NCBI GenBank assembly: GCA_027922465.2
Contig: BQMF02000142.1
Span: forward strand, 744,001-808,000
DNA from: Turritopsis dohrnii
Lineage: Eukaryota; Cnidaria; Hydrozoa; Anthoathecata; Oceaniidae
Direction of reading: 5' to 3'
Length of the DNA: 64,000 nucleotides
In this document: positions 1,203-11,220 of the stretch, piece after piece
How the letters are laid out: each line of letters starts with the position of its first letter
Position numbering within the stretch: the stretch's first letter is position 1
The notes under the pieces: model-generated
The model's input: only the letters and a program-made list of their open reading frames with translations
Databases searched by the model: none
What the model was told of the DNA's origin: nothing
Translations under genes and position numbers: made by a program

Positions 1203-2350
1203 CAGTTAGGACCACTCAATCAAAACTTGCAATAAAAAGCATTTCATACCACTTTATCACAACGTTTTCTTCTGATTTGAGAATACAAGATTGAGAATTG
1301 TAAAATCGTGAAAGAAGTAATTATCAATCTGATTTAATTTGTCTGATTTGACTTAGGACTCTTTACTTTGTACATTCACGTTGATATAAATAAATGGTCC
1401 AGAACAAATTATTTGTGTTTTTTCTATGAAGCCCAAGAATATTTGAATAGAATTTATCAAGATACAGATGAAGTTCACCGTAGTATTAAAGGCACAAAAG
1501 ATTGGGAACACAAAAATTTTGCTTTTTTAGGATTCACGACTTTATATGCTGGCGACTTTTAAATATTTTCACAAAAAACATTCCACGGATTTGCAACCAT
1601 TTCTTTGAAGGGTGAAGGGTGCTCATGACTTTTTGTGTTATTTTCGTATTCAAATTGAATCACTTCGTTTCCAGATCCCCAAAATAAGTAAGCAGTGCCG
1701 TAACTCGGGGGTTGCTTTGGGTGCGATCACACCACCTTTTTTACCAAGCAATTTTTTACCAAGCGATATACTACCAAACATTTTTAGAACACTAAGTTTA
1801 AGCTAAGGGGAGGACTGGACGTATAATGACAAAATTTTTATGTTCTGGTGAAGCATGTAAATAACCATTCGTTCATTTGAATTATTCATTCTGAATGTTT
1901 CCCAAAAATTTATTATTGCAATGTTTGGTACTGTTATGTTAATGATTTTAATAATCATTTTGTCGATACGCCAAACAATAGCTCAAATTTAATTTCACAA
2001 CCATAATTGAAACTTATGCTAATATATCGCTAGAAAAGCGGTATATACTCCTCCGAAGACGTATAAATTGTTCGTTTTTTTCTTTCTCCATTTTCTGAAG
2101 AACTAAGCCAAAAGGGAAAATTTGACACGGTAAAACGTTTTGTTTTTGCATAAAGTTTCACCACCCCAAAAATGAAAAGAACTTATTGAATTTTCCCTTA
2201 GAGCTATGTTTCTATGTGGTTGCTATGATAGATCGTCATCATTCAATTGGATGTATTCAAATAGGAGAGTAAAATAAAATTATAGAGGCAATTCTTTATA
2301 ATAAATCACAATTATTTTAGCGACAAATTCTGGCTGAGTGGTCCTAACTG
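1203..2350. mobile_element. Terminal-inverted-repeat DNA element, 1.15 kb
   Basis: CAGTTAGGACCACTCA at 1203-1218 is repeated exactly in inverted orientation at 2335-2350. ATTAT flanks both sides (1198-1202 and 2351-2355), giving a 5-bp duplication. Taking TCAGTTAGG as the end instead would give a 3-bp TTA duplication, as in PIF/Harbinger elements. Two short open frames (about 1368-1562 and 1612-1806, plus strand) do not resemble a transposase, so the copy appears non-autonomous. It lies downstream of the COQ7 exon 1 splice donor and so probably inside a COQ7 intron. Confidence 0.7.
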
Positions 2351-2615
2351 ATTATGATTTCTCACAGTCCATTCTTCTTCACGTCTTGCTGTTAATTGTT
2401 CTTATTACTCTGCTTCATTAAACATTTTATTCAGTTATATGTGGTGAACTTGGTAGGAATTAATGTATATTTGTGTGACAAGAATTTTTGTTTACTTTTT
2501 CTGTCCGTAACAAAAAGGAAGGCTGTCAATAATAAGAAGGAACATTGTCAATTGACTAGGAACATTGGCTAGGAACATTATGGTATTGTAGGATAGTTAA
2601 CAAAATAAAACCTAC

Positions 2616-2918
2616 CTGTATTATTGATGCATATGGCGATCCACGTAAAACTGCCATCTGTCCCGCGTAAATTCTATTTGCTCCTACTTCACCAGCGTGA
2701 TCTACTCTCAAAATTTTTGAAATAAGTCTTTTCTGACGCCTTCTCTCTAATCGATTAGATCTCATGGCATAATTGCTATCGTAGGAACACTTTCTTATAA
2801 CACAAGTTCTTCCAGCCATATACTGATATGCTGCAAAGTTTGATCCACTTAGACGTAATGCCTGCTGGAAACTTCCAGTCTTCAGCATCTTCTTTCCAGC
2901 AACGTGGGCAGCCATCAT
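2616..2918 (-). CDS. COQ7: COQ7 (5-demethoxyubiquinone hydroxylase), first coding exon
   Basis: The exon encodes about 101 residues. It starts with tandem methionines, has a basic N-terminal stretch suitable as a mitochondrial presequence, and ends in ISKILRVDHAGEVGANRIY followed by AGQMAVL. That block is the signature of the COQ7/CLK-1 di-iron hydroxylase and contains the first glutamate iron ligand. COQ7 hydroxylates demethoxyubiquinone in the matrix-side CoQ biosynthetic complex. The frame runs into a CAG/GTAGGT splice donor at 2616/2615, phase 0, so the following open sequence down to 2556 is intron read-through. I could not find the remaining exons (the other Glu and His ligands) on the minus strand of 1-2600; they should lie beyond the left edge. 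Family identification is firm; the upstream start is the better of two adjacent ATGs by position only. Confidence 0.88.
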
Positions 2919-3220
2919 GTTTGTTTATGTTACGAAACGCACCGTAAAAGCCGTTCATGTAACTAGTGACATGAATTTTCGTCTGCTGACGGAGTCAGTT
3001 TTTTCTTTTCAAAAAAAAAATCCCTGTTCCTTTATCTTTTGTGCAATTCTGATAAGTTGTATTTGTCTTGCATATATAAATATAAACAATAACGTCACTT
3101 AACGTTCCATCAAGTGATCTCTTCCAATTATTTCCTCCTCTCTTCAACAAGGACCTCCGCGGAGTAGAATTTCGTTTGGGGAGGAGCTGACTAATTAGGA
3201 CCAAGAAAATTTTGCAAATT

Positions 3221-3523
3221 TTATTGGACTAGAATGGCTAGAACATAAAAAACCCAACAAACGTAAACCGATAAAATTATGGGGAGGGGGGGAGGCACCC
3301 TGCTCCGCGGTCCCTGTTCAATCAAATCCCATATATCTCTTCGTTCGTCATGCTTCGTGTCATGGAGACAGCTGATGGCTCTGGATTGTTCACTGTCTTC
3401 AAAGTTTTTGCGGCAGAAAAAGTTTGAGTTTGGTCCGAATTTAACACAAGCGGCTTTTTCGAAGGAACCTTTTAGGAAACGAAAATAGCTTGTGCTGATT
3501 AAATGGTTCTGATACGTTTCCAA
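3221..3523 (-). CDS. Possible small single-span membrane protein (100 aa)
   Basis: This uninterrupted frame is less A+T-rich than its surroundings. The N-terminal half is basic and rich in Phe and Ser. The middle is charged (DTKHDERRDIWDLIEQGP). A proline-rich turn precedes a single C-terminal hydrophobic span of about 20 residues ending LAILVQ. That layout resembles small inner-mitochondrial-membrane proteins such as respiratory-complex accessory subunits, but I do not recognise the family. It lies upstream of COQ7 on the same strand. It could also be a chance frame; the opposite strand is open over part of the same interval. There is no RNA support. Confidence 0.33.
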   Translation of the reverse strand: METYQNHLISTSYFRFLKGSFEKAACVKFGPNSNFFCRKNFEDSEQSRAISCLHDTKHDERRDIWDLIEQGPRSRVPPPLPIILSVYVCWVFYVLAILVQ

Positions 3524-4317: not shown

Positions 4318-4535
4318 TATGGAAGCCGATAAGGGTCAGTCGGAGTAAAAAAATCTTCTGGGGAAAAAAAATTTACCTGCCGAAAAACATTTTTTTTGGA
4401 AAAATAATTATTTTTGCCGCGAAAAAAATTTTTAAGGAAACTTCGAAAATTGATAATTGAAAAAAAAACTTTAATGTTCCTACGAAAAATTATTTTTCTG
4501 ATCGAAAAAAATATTTTTATGGATGGCGCCCGCGC

Positions 4536-5236
4536 ATGCTTAGCAATAATTTTTTTATCAAAATAAATGCCAGCCTAGCTGCAAACTGTAAAAACATAGC
4601 TTTCTGTGGAAAATGTCGAGTTGCTGTCAGGTTATTAGACATATTCTGTACAACCTGCGGAAATAAGATTGAAAAGAAGGAATTAAACGTAAAAGAAGAA
4701 GAAGAAAAAGAAAAGGTTTTGCACAATCTTAAAACCTTTAGAGCTCATGTGCAACATCAGAAAAAAATCAGGATTTATTAAGGAGGGAAAGAAGACCAGC
4801 AGTAGTACTGAAGTTAATGCAAATGTTAATATGCAACAGAAAAGATCAGGATTGGAGACAAAGATGGAGGAGTGAAGTTAAAATAAATGTAGGAGTAGTA
4901 CACTCTGATAAGAACGGACATCTATCAAAGAAACGTGGGAGTAAACTGCCAGTGCTTGTTTGTGAAAATTTTATGGTTAACGATGTCTTGAAAGCTGCAC
5001 TCAAAAAAATTTCGGAAAATGATCAATACTTTTGTAGCTTGGATAGTTACACACTTGTTTATCCAGACTTTCTTCGTATTGTAGAAAATATCCCAGGTTC
5101 TAATAAGAAGTTTACAATTGGAGAATACAAGCATTATTTAGGGAAACCTTACTCAAAAATCGACCTGTATGTCTGCCTTCTGACAGATTCATTAGAATGG
5201 CGTTTCAGGAAGGCCAAGGATTTCAAAGACATTTGA
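4536..5236 (+). pseudogene. Truncated paralogue of the zinc-ribbon HECT ligase (HECT domain missing)
   Basis: Two frames make up the relic. The first (4536-4781) has a four-cysteine zinc ribbon, CGKCRVAVRLLDIFCTTCG, then a Lys/Glu-rich linker. The second (4817-5236) aligns with residues 105-207 of the HECT protein at 8910-11050: VGVVHSDKNG against VGIMTRDDFG, then Y-x-LVYPD against Y-x-LLYPDG, then KPYSKIDLYVCL against KPYSQIIFYLCM. The change of frame near 4790 indicates a frameshift. The frame stops at 5236, and neither HECT lobe nor catalytic cysteine appears in the 575 bp before the convergent integrase. This is therefore an internally deleted copy. A truncated product with zinc ribbon plus middle domain could still be made, but no evidence here shows it. 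Confidence 0.72.
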
Positions 5237-5812
5237 TAGTCACTGATCTAGAAGCATTGATATTTTTTTGTTATAAATTTTGTTCTTTTACTTTTTATTT
5301 CAATGATAATCAGTCCAGTGGTTAGTTTTGTTATTTGAACTGGTTGGTATGGGCAAGAAGTTTTGTCTTAAAACTTAAAAAGTTAGATGAAGTGACCAAT
5401 ATCTACACATAATGAGTGGTATTATACCAAGGATGCACTTATGTTTGTTTCTTAATGGCATCTGCAACAATTTCTAAGTTCATTGTGGGACCTCCACAGT
5501 TTCTTTCTTCATTTTTTACGTTTTATTTTGTTTAGACATTTTTCATGTATACTTGTTTTTTTAAAAAAAAATCTGTCTTTCATGTATGTGGTGGATAAAT
5601 CCCATAGTTTGTTGGGCGTTTTAGTATCTATTCAAATATCATGAAAAAGTAAACAAAGAAAGTATGTGTGACATAAACATTCCCATTACCTTATTAATTT
5701 TCACGCAGGAACGGTTGCGCGTAATTTTGATACTAATTTTCGCGCATTTTCGGGCTTCTGTGTGAAAATTAGTACGTCCAAAAATTTCTACCATTAAAGA
5801 TTTCAAAAGATG
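5237..5812. other. Spacer between convergent genes of the outer element
   Basis: The spacer is non-coding and presumably the remnant left after deletion of the HECT domain and 3' regions. It includes a strong palindrome at 5731-5774. Confidence 0.4.
5731..5774. repeat. Inverted repeat / hairpin, TACTAATTTTCGC arms
   Basis: TACTAATTTTCGCGC is followed after a short GC-richer loop by GTGTGAAAATTAGTA, giving a stem of about 11 bp with further partial pairing. It may be the core of a very small foldback MITE or a 3' structural signal between the two convergent genes. Confidence 0.5.
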
Positions 5813-6841
5813 TTAAAACTGATTCATAATCCTAGTGTACATAATCTTTGCCTGAATCCAATCTCTCGGTGGATATTCCAGGGTTAACTCGTCTACAATG
5901 TAATTGAAGTAATCTAACAAATCTTCATTCTCTAAATTTCTTCCCTCTTCTGCATTTTTCATAAGTTCTATTTCATTTTCCAAGTGTTTAAGTTCCTGAT
6001 CATAAACAGTAATGCCTTTGTTCTCGAAACCTTTAGTTTGTGGCAAAAAATACAATTGATTGGGTACTCCAGACACACCGCTGACTTTCCGTACTTACTG
6101 ACTTTCCGTATGTATGACCTTTTTCGTTATTTGTCAGAGTACATTGCAAAGCAGCTAAAATGCCGTTTTCTGTCCCACAGTCGGTTCGTACGTTAAATGG
6201 AGCTTTTAGAGTTTCTTTCACTTGTTCCATAAAGTACTTAGCTGGAATGTAAGGATCATTGTTATTTCTACAAACATTAAGCCAAAGAATTTTTCTTGAA
6301 AATCCGTCTATGCAACCATGAATAGGTAGACCATACGGTTTTAGTTTATCATACCCGTCAATATGCCAAACTGCGTCAGGACCAGAACAGAAATAAACAC
6401 GTCTCTTTAATCGTCTTGATTTTCTTCTTTTTGTTCCTTCTGGATCCAGGTCTCTTAAAATGGCCATAACTTTATCTCTGGAGATATTTATTTGGTAAGT
6501 ACATCGAAGTTTACACTGCATTCTACGATAGCCAAGTAAAGATCCAGGGCCCTGTAATTCTCTTCTTATTATTTCTCTGACTCGATCTTCATTGACAGGG
6601 ACATCTGTCTTTCTCAACTCGAAACTTTGAAACTTGACAGACTTAGATTTATGGAGTGATACTTGCTTAGAAATTGTAGAATAATGTTATATTGGTATCC
6701 CTTTGAATGATAATGCTTTATGATCTCTTCTTCAGATTTCAAATCCATTGGTATTTCTTCATTGTATCGTTGTTTTGTTCCGCAACAACCACAAAAAACA
6801 TCATCACTTTTCAGTTCACTTCCACATCGAAAGCAATACAT
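5813..6841 (-). pseudogene. IS3-like DDE integrase relic with N-terminal zinc ribbon (outer element)
   Basis: Read from 6841 downwards, the frame starts MYCFRCGSELKSDDVFCGCC, a CxxC...CxxC zinc ribbon. An HTH-like segment and an integrase core follow, with the first catalytic Asp in AVWHIDGYDKLKPYGLP and the second in VRTDCGTENG. A frameshift occurs near 6617. A deletion of roughly 85 codons near 6060-6090 removes the segment that in the sister copy carries the third acid (RIENFWSHCKR). The C-terminal tail (LYFLPQTKGF ... IVDELTLEYPPRDWIQAK) is retained in another frame. With the DDE triad broken, the copy cannot be catalytic. It is homologous throughout to the integrase at 7149-8406. Confidence 0.85.
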
Positions 6842-6860
6842 GTTTACAAACAATGTGAAA

Positions 6861-7108
6861 TATGGTGGCCGAGAGGGGCCATCAAGAAAAAAATTTCAAA
6901 ATCAAGAAAAAAATTTCAAAATCGAGAACAAAATTTCAAAATCGAGAACAAAATTTCAAAATCGTGAAATAAATTTCATAATCGTGAAAAAAATTTCAAA
7001 ATCGTGAAAAAAATTCAAAATCGTGAAAAAAAATTCAAAATCGACAAAAAAGTTTCAAAGTCGAGAAAAAAATTTTAAAATCGAGGAAAAAATATCAGGA
7101 TGTCAATC
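6861..7108 (+). repeat. Left terminal inverted repeat and subterminal tandem array
   Basis: A terminal imperfect palindrome (GGTGGCC-GAGAGG-GGCCATC) is followed from about 6882 by roughly ten head-to-tail units of 18-20 bp of the type AAAAAAATTTCAAAATCGAG. Such arrays are typical transposase-binding subterminal repeats. Reading through the array gives a meaningless Lys/Phe/Ser-rich peptide, so the integrase start is placed after it, at 7149. Confidence 0.85.
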
Positions 7109-7148
7109 AGAGCCATTGAACACGGAACCAGATTCAGTTCCACGCGTA

Positions 7149-8406
7149 ATGTATTGCCACAACTGTGGAAAAGCTATTGAAGATGAAGGAATATTTTGTT
7201 CTTCTTGTGGATGTAAGAGAAGGATGGAATTTGATTTGACGACCATGAAAACCGTTGTTTGTTCAGAAAAAGAGTTGATCCGATATTACTTTTATGCTGG
7301 TCACCGTATCGATGTAATTGTAAAGTTTTTAGAGCTCCACCATGGAATAAAAATGAGTGTCAGAACACTAAAACGAAGACTTAGTGAATTCGGCTTAAAA
7401 AGAAATGACTCTGAAGTCTCTGACGATGTATTAAGGGAGATCATTGAACATGAAGTCGAAGGTCCGTCATCTATGCGTGGCTATAGAGGCATGTGGCACT
7501 GTTTACGCCAGTCTTATGGAATCTCTGTGGCACGTGATAAAATTATGTTATTATTAAAAGAAATTGACCCTGAGGGGACCCGTGTTAGGAAAGCCAGGAG
7601 ATTAAGAAGAAGAAAATACGTTTCGCCTGGTGCCAATGCAGTGTGGCACAGATGGTTACGACAAACTTAAACCATTTGGCTTTCCCATCCATGGTTGCAT
7701 AGATGGCTTTTCCAGGAAAATCATTTGGCTCAAAGTTTCAAGGTCTAATAACAACCCCATTGTACCAGCTTATTTTTACTTAAAAAGTGTAGTCAAGTTT
7801 GGATTTTGTCCAGAAAATCTTAGAACCGACTGTGGAACGGAAAATGGACTTAGTGCGTCTATTCAATGCAAGTTTGTTTCATCTGTTAATGGGCATACGT
7901 ATGGTTCTTCTCATTACAATCAACGAATAGAGAATTTCTGGTCGCATTGTAAGCGAGGATTTACGTCTTGGTTAATCGATTTTTTCAAAGACCTAGTTTC
8001 AAAGAATGAAATGGTAATCGGTAACTTATTGCACTTAGAATGTGCATGGTTCGTATTCTCTGCTTTAATTCAACACGAACTTGACGAAGTTATTAAACTT
8101 TGGAACTCACATTACATCCGCCGATCTAGACATGATACTATCCCAGGCCGACCTGAAGAACTCTTTTTTCTCCCTGAATTACGTGGATATCTTAACTGTA
8201 AGCGTGCAGTAAGCGTAGAACAAGTAAACCAAGTCTTAACAGAGAACGACTTTCTCGATTGGGCGGAGGATGCAATAGAAGAACATGATGAAGAACTAAG
8301 TGAATATTTTATCTATCTTGTTAACGAGCTAAATCTTATTCACCCGCCTAACGATTGGAATAGTGGTAGAAATTTATATCTAGAACTCATATCACATGCT
8401 GTTTAA
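7149..8406 (+). pseudogene. IS3-like DDE integrase with N-terminal zinc ribbon (frameshifted)
   Basis: The start is chosen at MYCHNCGKAIEDEG because the sister copy also begins MYC and the upstream frame is terminal-repeat sequence. In order: a four-Cys ribbon (C3, C6, C17, C20); an HTH-like block (FLELHHGIKMSVRTLKRRL); an IS3-like pre-integrase block (GYRGMWHCLRQSYGI ... DPEGTRVRKARRLRRRK); then an rve-type core with DGYDKLKPFGFPIHGCIDGF, RTDCGTENG and HYNQRIENFWSHCK supplying D, D and E. The C-terminal domain has GRPEELFFLPELRGY. The frame changes near 7650 exactly at the first catalytic motif (WH-DGYD), where two bases are missing relative to the sister copy. The product would mobilise the element by cutting and joining its TATGG ends. 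An assembly error is an alternative to a real frameshift. Confidence 0.87.
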
Positions 8407-8909
8407 AGATAGTGGAAAGTATTTCGTGGTACGTTGCGGGCATTGAAGACGTAGAATGAATAGGAAAAGTTCATAAAGCAACAAAATCGTCTTTTTTAAC
8501 AAAACAAAAGAAACGTCATAAGTATAGCACTACAACAAACAACTAAACTTGTAGGATAAAATTATCTTATGAGCTATAAAAAGTGACTTGTCATTGTATT
8601 ATATATCAGAATTAGCTTTTCACTTTAGGAAACTGATAAAATGTGGATCTTAACCAATAACAAAACTCAACTTTTGCAGTAGAAATTTCGTCACCTATAA
8701 CTATTTTTACAGAATTTACTTTTATGATTTAGGGCCAGAATTTCTTTTACAAAAATATCTCCCCTTAAAGTATATTCATACAGGCTTATAAAAGATGAAC
8801 TTAAGCAAACAAAAAAATATCAAGTGAAAGTACAAACAGCACAAAATGTTAACAAAATCCAAAGTTATTTTCAAAAAAAGAAACTAAAAAATGTACTTAT
8901 AAACAATGT
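8407..8909. other. Spacer between the convergent integrase and HECT genes
   Basis: This is an A+T-rich interval with no coding potential that I can support. It probably holds the 3' UTRs and poly(A) signals of both genes. Confidence 0.5.
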
Positions 8910-11050
8910 TTAAACTTTCCCAAACCAAGGAGCCATTAGTATATCCTCTATCAAGTTGAGTTTGAACTGCTGGCTAGAGCATGTATATCTGTCATTCACA
9001 GGGAATACCAATGTTCTTGTACATGTATCTGCAGTGACACGCCTACCAGAAATATCATTTGTTGTGGTGTTGAGTGAACAAAACAAATGATTCCTGTGTT
9101 CATAATTGAAGGAGTAACAAACTTTGAACCAGTACAAAATCTAACAACATCTTCTGGAGTAAATGGTTTGGAAATTGTAATTTCATTTCCATCAGCTTCC
9201 AAATCTAGATCAATCACATTCATCCTGGATGCTTCTTCAAGCTGCAAACTCTCAAGCATGCTTGTAAAATTGTAGTAAATATCCTCCTCTAATTCTTTTT
9301 TACTTTTGTTAACTAAATCAGTTTCATCAGTTACACTAGAATAAATAACTTTACCAATCAAGCAATTCACTTCCTCCCATGTTTGGACTTGACACATTTC
9401 TAGCTCTTTCACTGCTTCCTGATAATGTTCTTTCATTAAGTCAATAACCCCAAGAATTTCCATACCTTTCTTCACTTCATTCATTTCTTGAAGACAAATC
9501 GATATCGAACAGTGATATGCAATGTTTGCGATCAGATTCCATTTGTCTGAAAATGACACTGAACTTTTGGTAACACCACAATCAAAACGTTCGGGTAAAT
9601 TGTTCAGTTCCTCTGAGAATAATGCTTCATTTTCACATTGAGATAGTTGTTGTAATTTTTCCTGCAACTCAAAATTAGGCACATCTCCAATATCAGGCTT
9701 TACTGAAGGTCCATCTAGTAGGTATGATGCAACAGCTGGCATAAGGTTTCGAGGGCCTGGGCAGCCTTGTAGAAGGGACAGGGCAATGAGTATCCCAAAC
9801 CGATAGAAATCCCCATTTGCTACCTTTTCAATATCATGCAAAAATGTGAATGATGAATTCCCTTGCATTATAAACCTTGGAGCATCTTCAAACAGAAGAG
9901 AAAAAAATTCTTGCAAAGGTCCTCCCTCATCTACTGCTTCTTCACCAATGAATTGCACTTTAATAGGCTTAATACCTTTTAAGAAGAAACGTTGCAATTT
10001 TTCGTTTGTATCCTGCCATACCTTACGCCGACGAATAACTAGTTTATACTTGTCATCAGGGTCACTTGTAAAAATATCCTGCAATTTCTTCAACTCGTTA
10101 TAGAAATTCGATTTCAAAGTGCTATCTGAACAAGTTGGAACACTGTCATTGACTATTGATCCTTCACTAAATGTATTGAAACTTGAAGCATGCAATGAAG
10201 AAGTTGAGGCTTGGTTTGTAGAGAAATCCTGGTTATCAGGAGGTCGACTTACTGTTTCCAAGTTACTATCTACATCCACAATAGAATCTGACAGGATATT
10301 GTCTGCTTCAAAGTAATCTGGAATAGACATTTGATAGGGTAATGGTGGAGGTTGATAGTGACTGTCATCAAGATAACCGAGTTTAATGTCATCACTACTC
10401 TTGTGCATATCACCTTCGAACTGTGATGTCATACACAAGTAGAATATTATTTGAGAGTACGGTTTACACAATTCTAATTTATAATCCTGTAGTCTAAAAG
10501 GTTTTGGCTCCTCAGATAGTGGAACTCCTGGCAAGCATATAACCTCTTTTCCATCCGGATATAACAAGGAGTATTCCTCTAATTTGCAAAACGTTTGGTT
10601 ATGAGATGCATGCTTATCTATCGAAGCTAACTTTAATTCGGTAGAAGAACACTTTTCAAAAACCTTTATTGGCAATTTTTTTCCACGTACAGGCTTCAAA
10701 TTACCAAAATCATCCCTAGTCATGATACCAACATTCACAAGAACCAACTTTTTACAATCAGCATTACCACTAGAGCTGTGAGGCTTTGAACTTTGATTGG
10801 ATTTAGGTTTCTTGAAATGTGATACAAGTTGTTTACGTTTTTCGTCCTGGTATTCTGAAAGTTTAAGAGGTCTTTTTTCAGCTTTCATCGATGCATCACC
10901 GACAACGTCAGTATTATTCGTTACTAATATATTTGAGCTACTTGAATGGTCAGATTCAACCTTTCTACCGCATCTAAAGCAAAATCTATCCTCACTTTCC
11001 AACGAAAAGCCACAACCGCGACAAAACACACCACAGCTCCTGTTCGCCAT
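8910..11050 (-). pseudogene. HECT-type E3 ubiquitin ligase with zinc ribbon, transposon-encoded
   Basis: The main frame (684 aa from 11050) has a zinc ribbon (C10, C13, C24, C27), a conserved domain at about 105-207 shared with the relic at 4817-5236, and a Ser/Pro/Asp-rich linker. A HECT N-lobe follows (VQFIGEEAVDEGGPLQEFF at about 365-383) and then most of the C-lobe. The catalytic-cysteine motif TADTCTRTLVFP lies in a different frame (Cys codon 9021-9023), which then runs to 8910 with a HECT-like tail. A frameshift near 9060 therefore separates the ligase core from its active site. HECT ligases form a ubiquitin thioester on that Cys before transfer to substrate. Similar proteins are often annotated G2/M-specific E3 ligase-like (G2E3-like) in fish and cnidarians. 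Location within the transposon argues it is element cargo rather than a host gene. Confidence 0.85.
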
Positions 11051-11095
11051 ATTTATTTATAAACCTTGCAAAATTACGGCTCCGAAAGAATTTTC

Positions 11096-11220
11096 AATTT
11101 TAATTTCTTGATTTTGATTTTGAAATTTTTTTCTCGATTTTGAATATTTTTTTTACGATTTTGAAAATCTTTTTCTTGATTTTGAAATTTTTTTCTCGAT
11201 GGCCCTTCTCGGCCACCATA
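11096..11220 (-). repeat. Right terminal inverted repeat and subterminal array
   Basis: This is the inverted counterpart of 6861-7108 and ends GGCCACCATA at 11220. It has about five A-rich units (CAAAATC repeated). It lies directly upstream of the HECT start codon. The next base begins the GTGAAA duplication. Confidence 0.85.

Follow-up and report, generated by a model that had tools for sequence, protein, structure and literature searches.

A HECT-type ubiquitin ligase gene convergent with the transposase in an IS3EU-like DNA transposon family of Turritopsis dohrnii

Can a cut-and-paste transposon carry a ubiquitin ligase, and what would such an enzyme do for it? The question is raised by a 4,360-bp element (positions 6861-11220) in a 64,000-nt stretch of the Turritopsis dohrnii genome (assembly GCA_027922465.2, contig BQMF02000142.1, positions 744,001 to 808,000), here called the window. 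The element is real, and it contains both a DDE transposase gene and a gene for a HECT-type ubiquitin ligase. We consider it to represent an IS3EU-like family in which the transposase is paired with a convergent HECT gene, whose product is predicted to be a trans-acting ligase that likely tags a host protein restraining the element; we give this reading a probability of roughly 0.55. To our knowledge, few transposon-borne effector enzymes have been described.

The element and its copies in the genome

The element starts with TATGG and ends with CCATA, in inverted orientation, and exact copies of GTGAAA lie on both flanks (Table 1). The initial annotation had drawn the same limits from the inverted ends and the GTGAAA duplication, but the inverted repeat between the two ends is longer than given there (61 nt, 92%). 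Within the window, TATGGTGGCCGAGA (≤2 mismatches) is found at two places, both exact, which are the two termini in inverted orientation; shuffled sequences had a mean of 0.17 matches, and two matches were reached in 3 of 100 shuffles. Tandem repeats with 20-21-bp units lie just inside each end. The positions of the open reading frames (ORFs) place both genes inside the element, the transposase running rightward and the HECT gene leftward, which agrees with the convergent arrangement claimed initially. That description was silent on two points: frameshifts in the transposase and HECT genes leave both broken in this copy, and an older relic adjoins the element.

The assignment of the transposase as an IS3-like integrase is borne out by Pfam. 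The rva_4 domain matches the second piece of the window transposase (E 1.1e-25) and the open, 419-aa transposase of copy L045 (E 1.4e-30), and this match corresponds to an IS3/IS481-like integrase core; rve and HTH_21 matches are visible beside the latter but under their cut-offs. The frameshift of the window transposase is not private, since L059 carries the same one. Named transposase relatives come from Hydra and Xenia (best 120 of 1,544 listed).

A search of the 436-Mb genome with the 23-nt terminus (≤2 mismatches) gave 73 matches, against 0 for the reversed control. Stretches examined as elements account for 45 of these, and the other 28 include four pairs of variant ends at spacings of 0.1-2.7 kb and another pair separated by 28.9 kb. 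Eighteen fetched loci with paired ends make 19 pairs together with the window, including L056 (a related family) and L057 and L058 (a sister family). An exact 6-bp duplication flanks 18 of the 19 pairs, every one different, the exception being L041, which has no duplication. On C607 a further pair, extending over two loci, has the exact duplication TTAGTG, for a total of 19 exact pairs in 20. The window family proper is represented by 17 paired copies (15 fetched pairs, the window and the C607 copy), and both genes lie between the ends in all 17, some of them truncated. Both are also present, at least in part, in the four one-end copies, and hence in 21 of 21. Copies with the integrase alone, which the initial annotation had named as evidence against its view, are absent from these 21 fetched copies; the idea of a stable host HECT gene, raised in the same place, is unsupported, as the 6-bp duplication differs from site to site and the private changes of the copies look neutral (see below). 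One copy, L044 (6.9 kb), also contains a 498-aa ORF at element positions 1886-3379, which we take to resemble a piggyBac-type transposase.

IS3EU elements are described as having TA...TA termini and usually 6-bp duplications (accessible text of PMC10045372), and a set of fungal members as having TAYGG..CCRTA ends (accessible text of PMC12730594). The termini of the present family are of the TA..TA and TAYGG..CCRTA types, and it shares the 6-bp duplications and the IS3/IS481-like DDE core with IS3EU/GingerRoot elements as set out in those texts, so that the link to IS3EU raised in the initial annotation agrees with published ends and duplication length. IS3EU is defined without HHCC upstream of the core; the transposase here carries a CxxC...CxxC zinc ribbon, and no HHCC-specific search was made. 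By ends, duplications and integrase core, rather than by a tree, the family appears to fit the IS3EU superfamily.

The family differs from IS3EU/GingerRoot elements as described in those texts in having a HECT gene; the word HECT does not appear in the main text of PMC12730594. Fungal IS3EU elements with TET/JBP and alpha-kinase (same text) are comparable in that effector enzyme genes lie beside the transposase, and an alpha-kinase occurs in a sister family here. However, the window family has a convergent HECT gene rather than TET, and the alpha-kinase of L057 has the same orientation as its transposase, whereas in fungal TET-bearing elements the two are described as opposite (PMC12730594, accessible text). 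Alpha-kinase and TET are known as IS3EU passengers in fungi, while no HECT-bearing IS3EU element or other transposon was found in the open-access literature searched, although Repbase may hold an unpublished HECT ORF.

The HECT gene and its pairing with the transposase

The window HECT protein matches E6AP by phmmer (E 5.8e-4), and it has no match to Pfam HECT at E ≤1. Thirteen homologues (27-40% identity) are listed among the best 7,992 candidates scored, five of them with Pfam HECT, and Pfam HECT is above its cut-off in four of five homologues scanned. Homologue P0001, as modelled by AlphaFold (mean predicted local distance difference test (pLDDT) 73.5; predicted template-modelling (TM) score 0.56), is matched to HECT structures (best hit at E 4.4e-13, with TM-scores of 0.29 by query and 0.49 by target), and the order of strands and helix in the model suggests a ubiquitin-like middle domain. 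Assignment to the HECT group is by sequence or by fold, the window protein itself being unmatched by Pfam HECT. The TADTC cysteine of the C-lobe lies in another frame in the window copy but is in frame in L059 (C207:326788-332300), where the 714-aa HECT ORF is open and includes it, while in L044 this cysteine is changed to Arg. Loss of the C-lobe throughout the family was considered and dropped, as the window protein used for comparison itself changes frame there, while L044 and L059 both read through it; the C-lobe frameshift was seen only in the window copy. A cysteine of the C-lobe type (TC or AC) is present in all eight families compared. In N-lobe similarity, C-lobe TC cysteine and predicted fold the protein resembles the HECT ligases E6AP, Rsp5 and HUWE1, and it is unlike them in being transposon-borne, with an N-terminal zinc ribbon and the predicted ubiquitin-like middle. 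A second protein search (alignment A2) added eight proteins, of which the two named are an Actinostola protein and lamprey HERC4. No HECT relatives were found in viral contigs or prokaryote genomes, sets outside which records near this genome may lie.

The convergent pair recurs inside exact duplications in diverged families, as seen in four elements. For L056 (C253), the transposase and HECT protein are 48% and 39% identical, respectively, to those of the window family. A 9,274-bp element (C607:112358-121631; L049/L050) is nested in a window-family copy; its ends are TACSGTGGATCARAGGTGACA, with 45 of 60 end bases alike, its duplication is CGAACA, and its transposase (36% identical to that of the window) converges with a divergent HECT gene (Pfam E 1.8e-11) on the opposite strand. 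The ends of L065 and L067 are TACGGAAGCCGAGAAGGGACA, with duplications GATTTA and TCATTG, and an open transposase ORF (440 aa) is retained in L065 and an open HECT ORF (648 aa) in L067. Ends similar to these also bound the convergent pair of L066, where the duplication bases are equal at five of six positions. L063 and L064 are more distant convergent pairs of HECT and rva_4; their ends were searched for and not found, in a test passed by 1 of 40 shuffles, and the L063 protein has a weak CUE-like start in place of the zinc ribbon.

Where present, the zinc ribbon has the form CxxC...CxxCG. It starts both proteins in the window element, L056, L066 and the old relic, and is in one gene only in L065 and L067. 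None was seen in either gene of the nested C607 element, in the alpha-kinase element L057, or in the L063 and L064 stretches (ends of both not located). For the eight families compared, HECT distances are correlated with transposase distances (r 0.889, a value attained in 48 of 40,320 permutations).

The pairing is also apparent when the ends are not used. A HECT list based on P0001 (65 of 422 candidates scored) merges to 55 loci, 17 of which sit in window-family elements. Among the remaining 38, a listed transposase lies no more than 8 kb away in 14 cases (0.32 expected), each of them a convergent pair. These 38 include C23 and C366, window-family loci with no listed partner, because a locus was placed in the window family when a transposase of that family was listed close to it. 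With Pfam lists (129 of 548 HECT candidates and 150 of 1,677 rva_4 candidates scored), rva_4 lies within 10 kb of 16 of 112 HECT loci (0.77 expected): 13 convergent, 2 tandem and 1 divergent, the nearest gene in the divergent case being part of a neighbouring pair. Starting from the transposases, Pfam HECT lies within 10 kb of 5 of the 77 listed outside the window family (0.40 expected), all five convergent. The two HECT lists overlap, and since the lists are partial (for transposases, 150 of 1,677 and 100 of 1,799 candidates scored), the paired counts are lower bounds.

Separately, multi-copy HECT fragments of ~250 aa (query ~420-682), with no listed transposase nearby, occur on C128, C595, C1, C182:161915, C2, C4, C67 and C732; this group is possibly another mobile family.

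The sister family, L057 (C98:51688-56846) and L058 (C214:252612-257762), is bounded by TATGGTGGCCGAGGAGTG ends inside exact 6-bp duplications. An alpha-kinase match lies in each of the two elements (Pfam E 2.8e-30 for the L057 protein), and the window HECT protein has no tblastn match in either. C243, C74 and C82 also have alpha-kinase matches ~1-1.5 kb from an end, of the TATGGTGGCCGAGGAGTG type on C243 and of another variant on the other two.

Features of the window

Coordinates of the element, its flanks and the adjoining relic are collected in Table 1. The relic comprises a HECT-type N-terminal part (4536-5236, + strand) and a convergent transposase remnant (5819-6853, - strand); a second, right end was looked for in the relic and not found. 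The window element starts ~20 bp upstream of the relic transposase start near 6841, which is consistent with nesting of the element into the older relic. Beside the elements there is an ORF at 2556-2918 (- strand), which resembles a COQ7 exon and is possibly part of a host gene.

Table 1. Features of the transposon and its immediate surroundings (window coordinates)
Feature	Position	Strand	Basis
Relic of an older, related element, with end-like TATGGAAGCCGATAAGGGTCAGTC at 4318 and HECT-type and transposase remains	4318..6853	.	
Target-site duplication, left, GTGAAA	6855..6860	.	sequence
Left terminal inverted repeat, start TATGGTGGCCGAGAGGGGCCATC	6861..6921	+	repeat comparison
Subterminal tandem repeats, 20-bp unit, 10.9 copies	6881..7097	+	tandem repeat analysis
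Transposase gene: zinc ribbon, helix-turn-helix (HTH)-like part, rva_4/DDE core; frameshift near 7650	7149..8406	+	
HECT C-lobe end, catalytic-type Cys (VTADTC), frame differs from long ORF	8913..9050	-	
HECT ubiquitin-ligase ORF, 684 aa: zinc ribbon, predicted ubiquitin-like middle, HECT N-lobe	8996..11050	-	
Subterminal tandem repeats, ~21-bp unit, 4.2 copies	11116..11200	-	tandem repeat analysis
Right terminal inverted repeat, start TATGGTGGCCGAGAAGGGCCATC	11160..11220	-	repeat comparison
Target-site duplication, right, GTGAAA	11221..11226	.	sequence

Selection and the possible role of the ligase

HECT changes common to several copies are under purifying selection. For these shared changes, 30 of 60 are nonsynonymous or stop, compared with a neutral expectation of 0.753 (ratio 0.33, p 2e-5), while changes private to one copy (133 of 176) look neutral by the same expectation. 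For the transposase, the shared changes (26 of 42) have a ratio of 0.53 (p 0.037), and the private ones (88 of 128) a ratio of 0.72 (p 0.055) and are not clearly neutral. In these counts the majority codon is taken as ancestor, the copies are related to each other, and CpG effects are unmodelled. The mean pairwise ratio of nonsynonymous to synonymous rates (dN/dS) over 17 copies is 0.41 for the HECT N-terminal part and 0.45 for the transposase; 44 C-lobe codons, in which changes are few, give 0.06. The shared changes likely predate insertion, and we read constraint on shared changes with neutrality of private ones as the behaviour of a transposon gene, not of a host gene.

On sequence grounds, the ligase is predicted to modify a protein of the host or of the element, which would likely help the element to move or persist. 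In the mechanism we envisage, the zinc ribbon and HTH of the transposase would contact the ends and the subterminal 20-bp repeats, and insertion would rely on DDE chemistry. In several families the HECT protein begins with a zinc ribbon of the transposase type; it may be recruited to the same complex or DNA, where it could ubiquitinate a repair or silencing factor at the element. The ligase would be supplied in trans, a HECT gene in the same copy seemingly not being required; the transposase pattern is alike.

Several observations weigh against a HECT ligase acting for the element. HECT is open in only one of the 21 window-family copies (L059), whose transposase is frameshifted; the transposase is open in three (L042, L045 and L052), and none has both genes open. 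Lesions are common to copies at different sites (L042/L048, L047/L052 and L041/L051/L054, of which L041 is without duplication), and HECT-broken copies must therefore have moved. Because they still spread, the ligase likely works in trans, or helps only over a longer run. The alpha-kinase sister family, with no HECT visible by tblastn, indicates that HECT is not obligatory, and most of the listed HECT loci have no listed transposase nearby (24 of 38; 96 of 112). The co-divergence proposed for the two genes holds across eight families but not within the zinc-ribbon group: the correlation comes mostly from deep splits, and five families of this group alone give r 0.54 (15 of 120 permutations), which is not significant. 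The TM-scores of the P0001 fold match are low, and the proposed role of HECT is read from sequence and a model.

Some of these points would be expected if HECT were an inert passenger, acquired in a single capture and of no use to the element, as both the movement of HECT-broken copies and the single open gene in 21 would allow. We regard this as improbable, since it is disfavoured by the purifying selection on shared HECT changes; in addition, the catalytic-type cysteine is retained across eight families, HECT ORFs are open in L059 and L067, the convergent pairing occurs in many families, and copies with broken transposases moved likewise. The genome contains many HECT matches (at least 139), and a transposon might by chance land beside a host HECT gene, or be joined to one by an assembly artefact, but this is refuted by the presence of both genes within duplicated target sites at place after place and by the neutral-looking private changes.

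The main alternative to a host target is the transposase itself: HECT might control how much of it there is, or take it off the ends after the cut, and would then be an internal control gene, not a weapon turned on the host. The convergent pairing and the correlated divergence agree with this, and zinc ribbons of the same type on both proteins (as in the window element) could unite them; however, such ribbons are a generic kind of fold, and none was seen in the nested C607 element or in the L063 and L064 stretches. We think self-control somewhat unlikely, and prefer a host protein that restrains the element as the target. A wider proposal, which we consider less likely than not, is that in IS3EU-like transposons the position beside the transposase is a swappable effector slot, filled by HECT in many families here and, in a sister family whose ends are almost identical, by an alpha-kinase. 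HECT would then be a standing weapon that rewires host ubiquitin against silencing or repair control, recruited by a zinc ribbon of the transposase type.

A HECT ligase under purifying selection in a cut-and-paste element offers a means of finding out which host proteins a DNA transposon has to modify in order to persist in a genome. It also cautions that a HECT match in such a genome may represent a transposon gene, not a host ligase.

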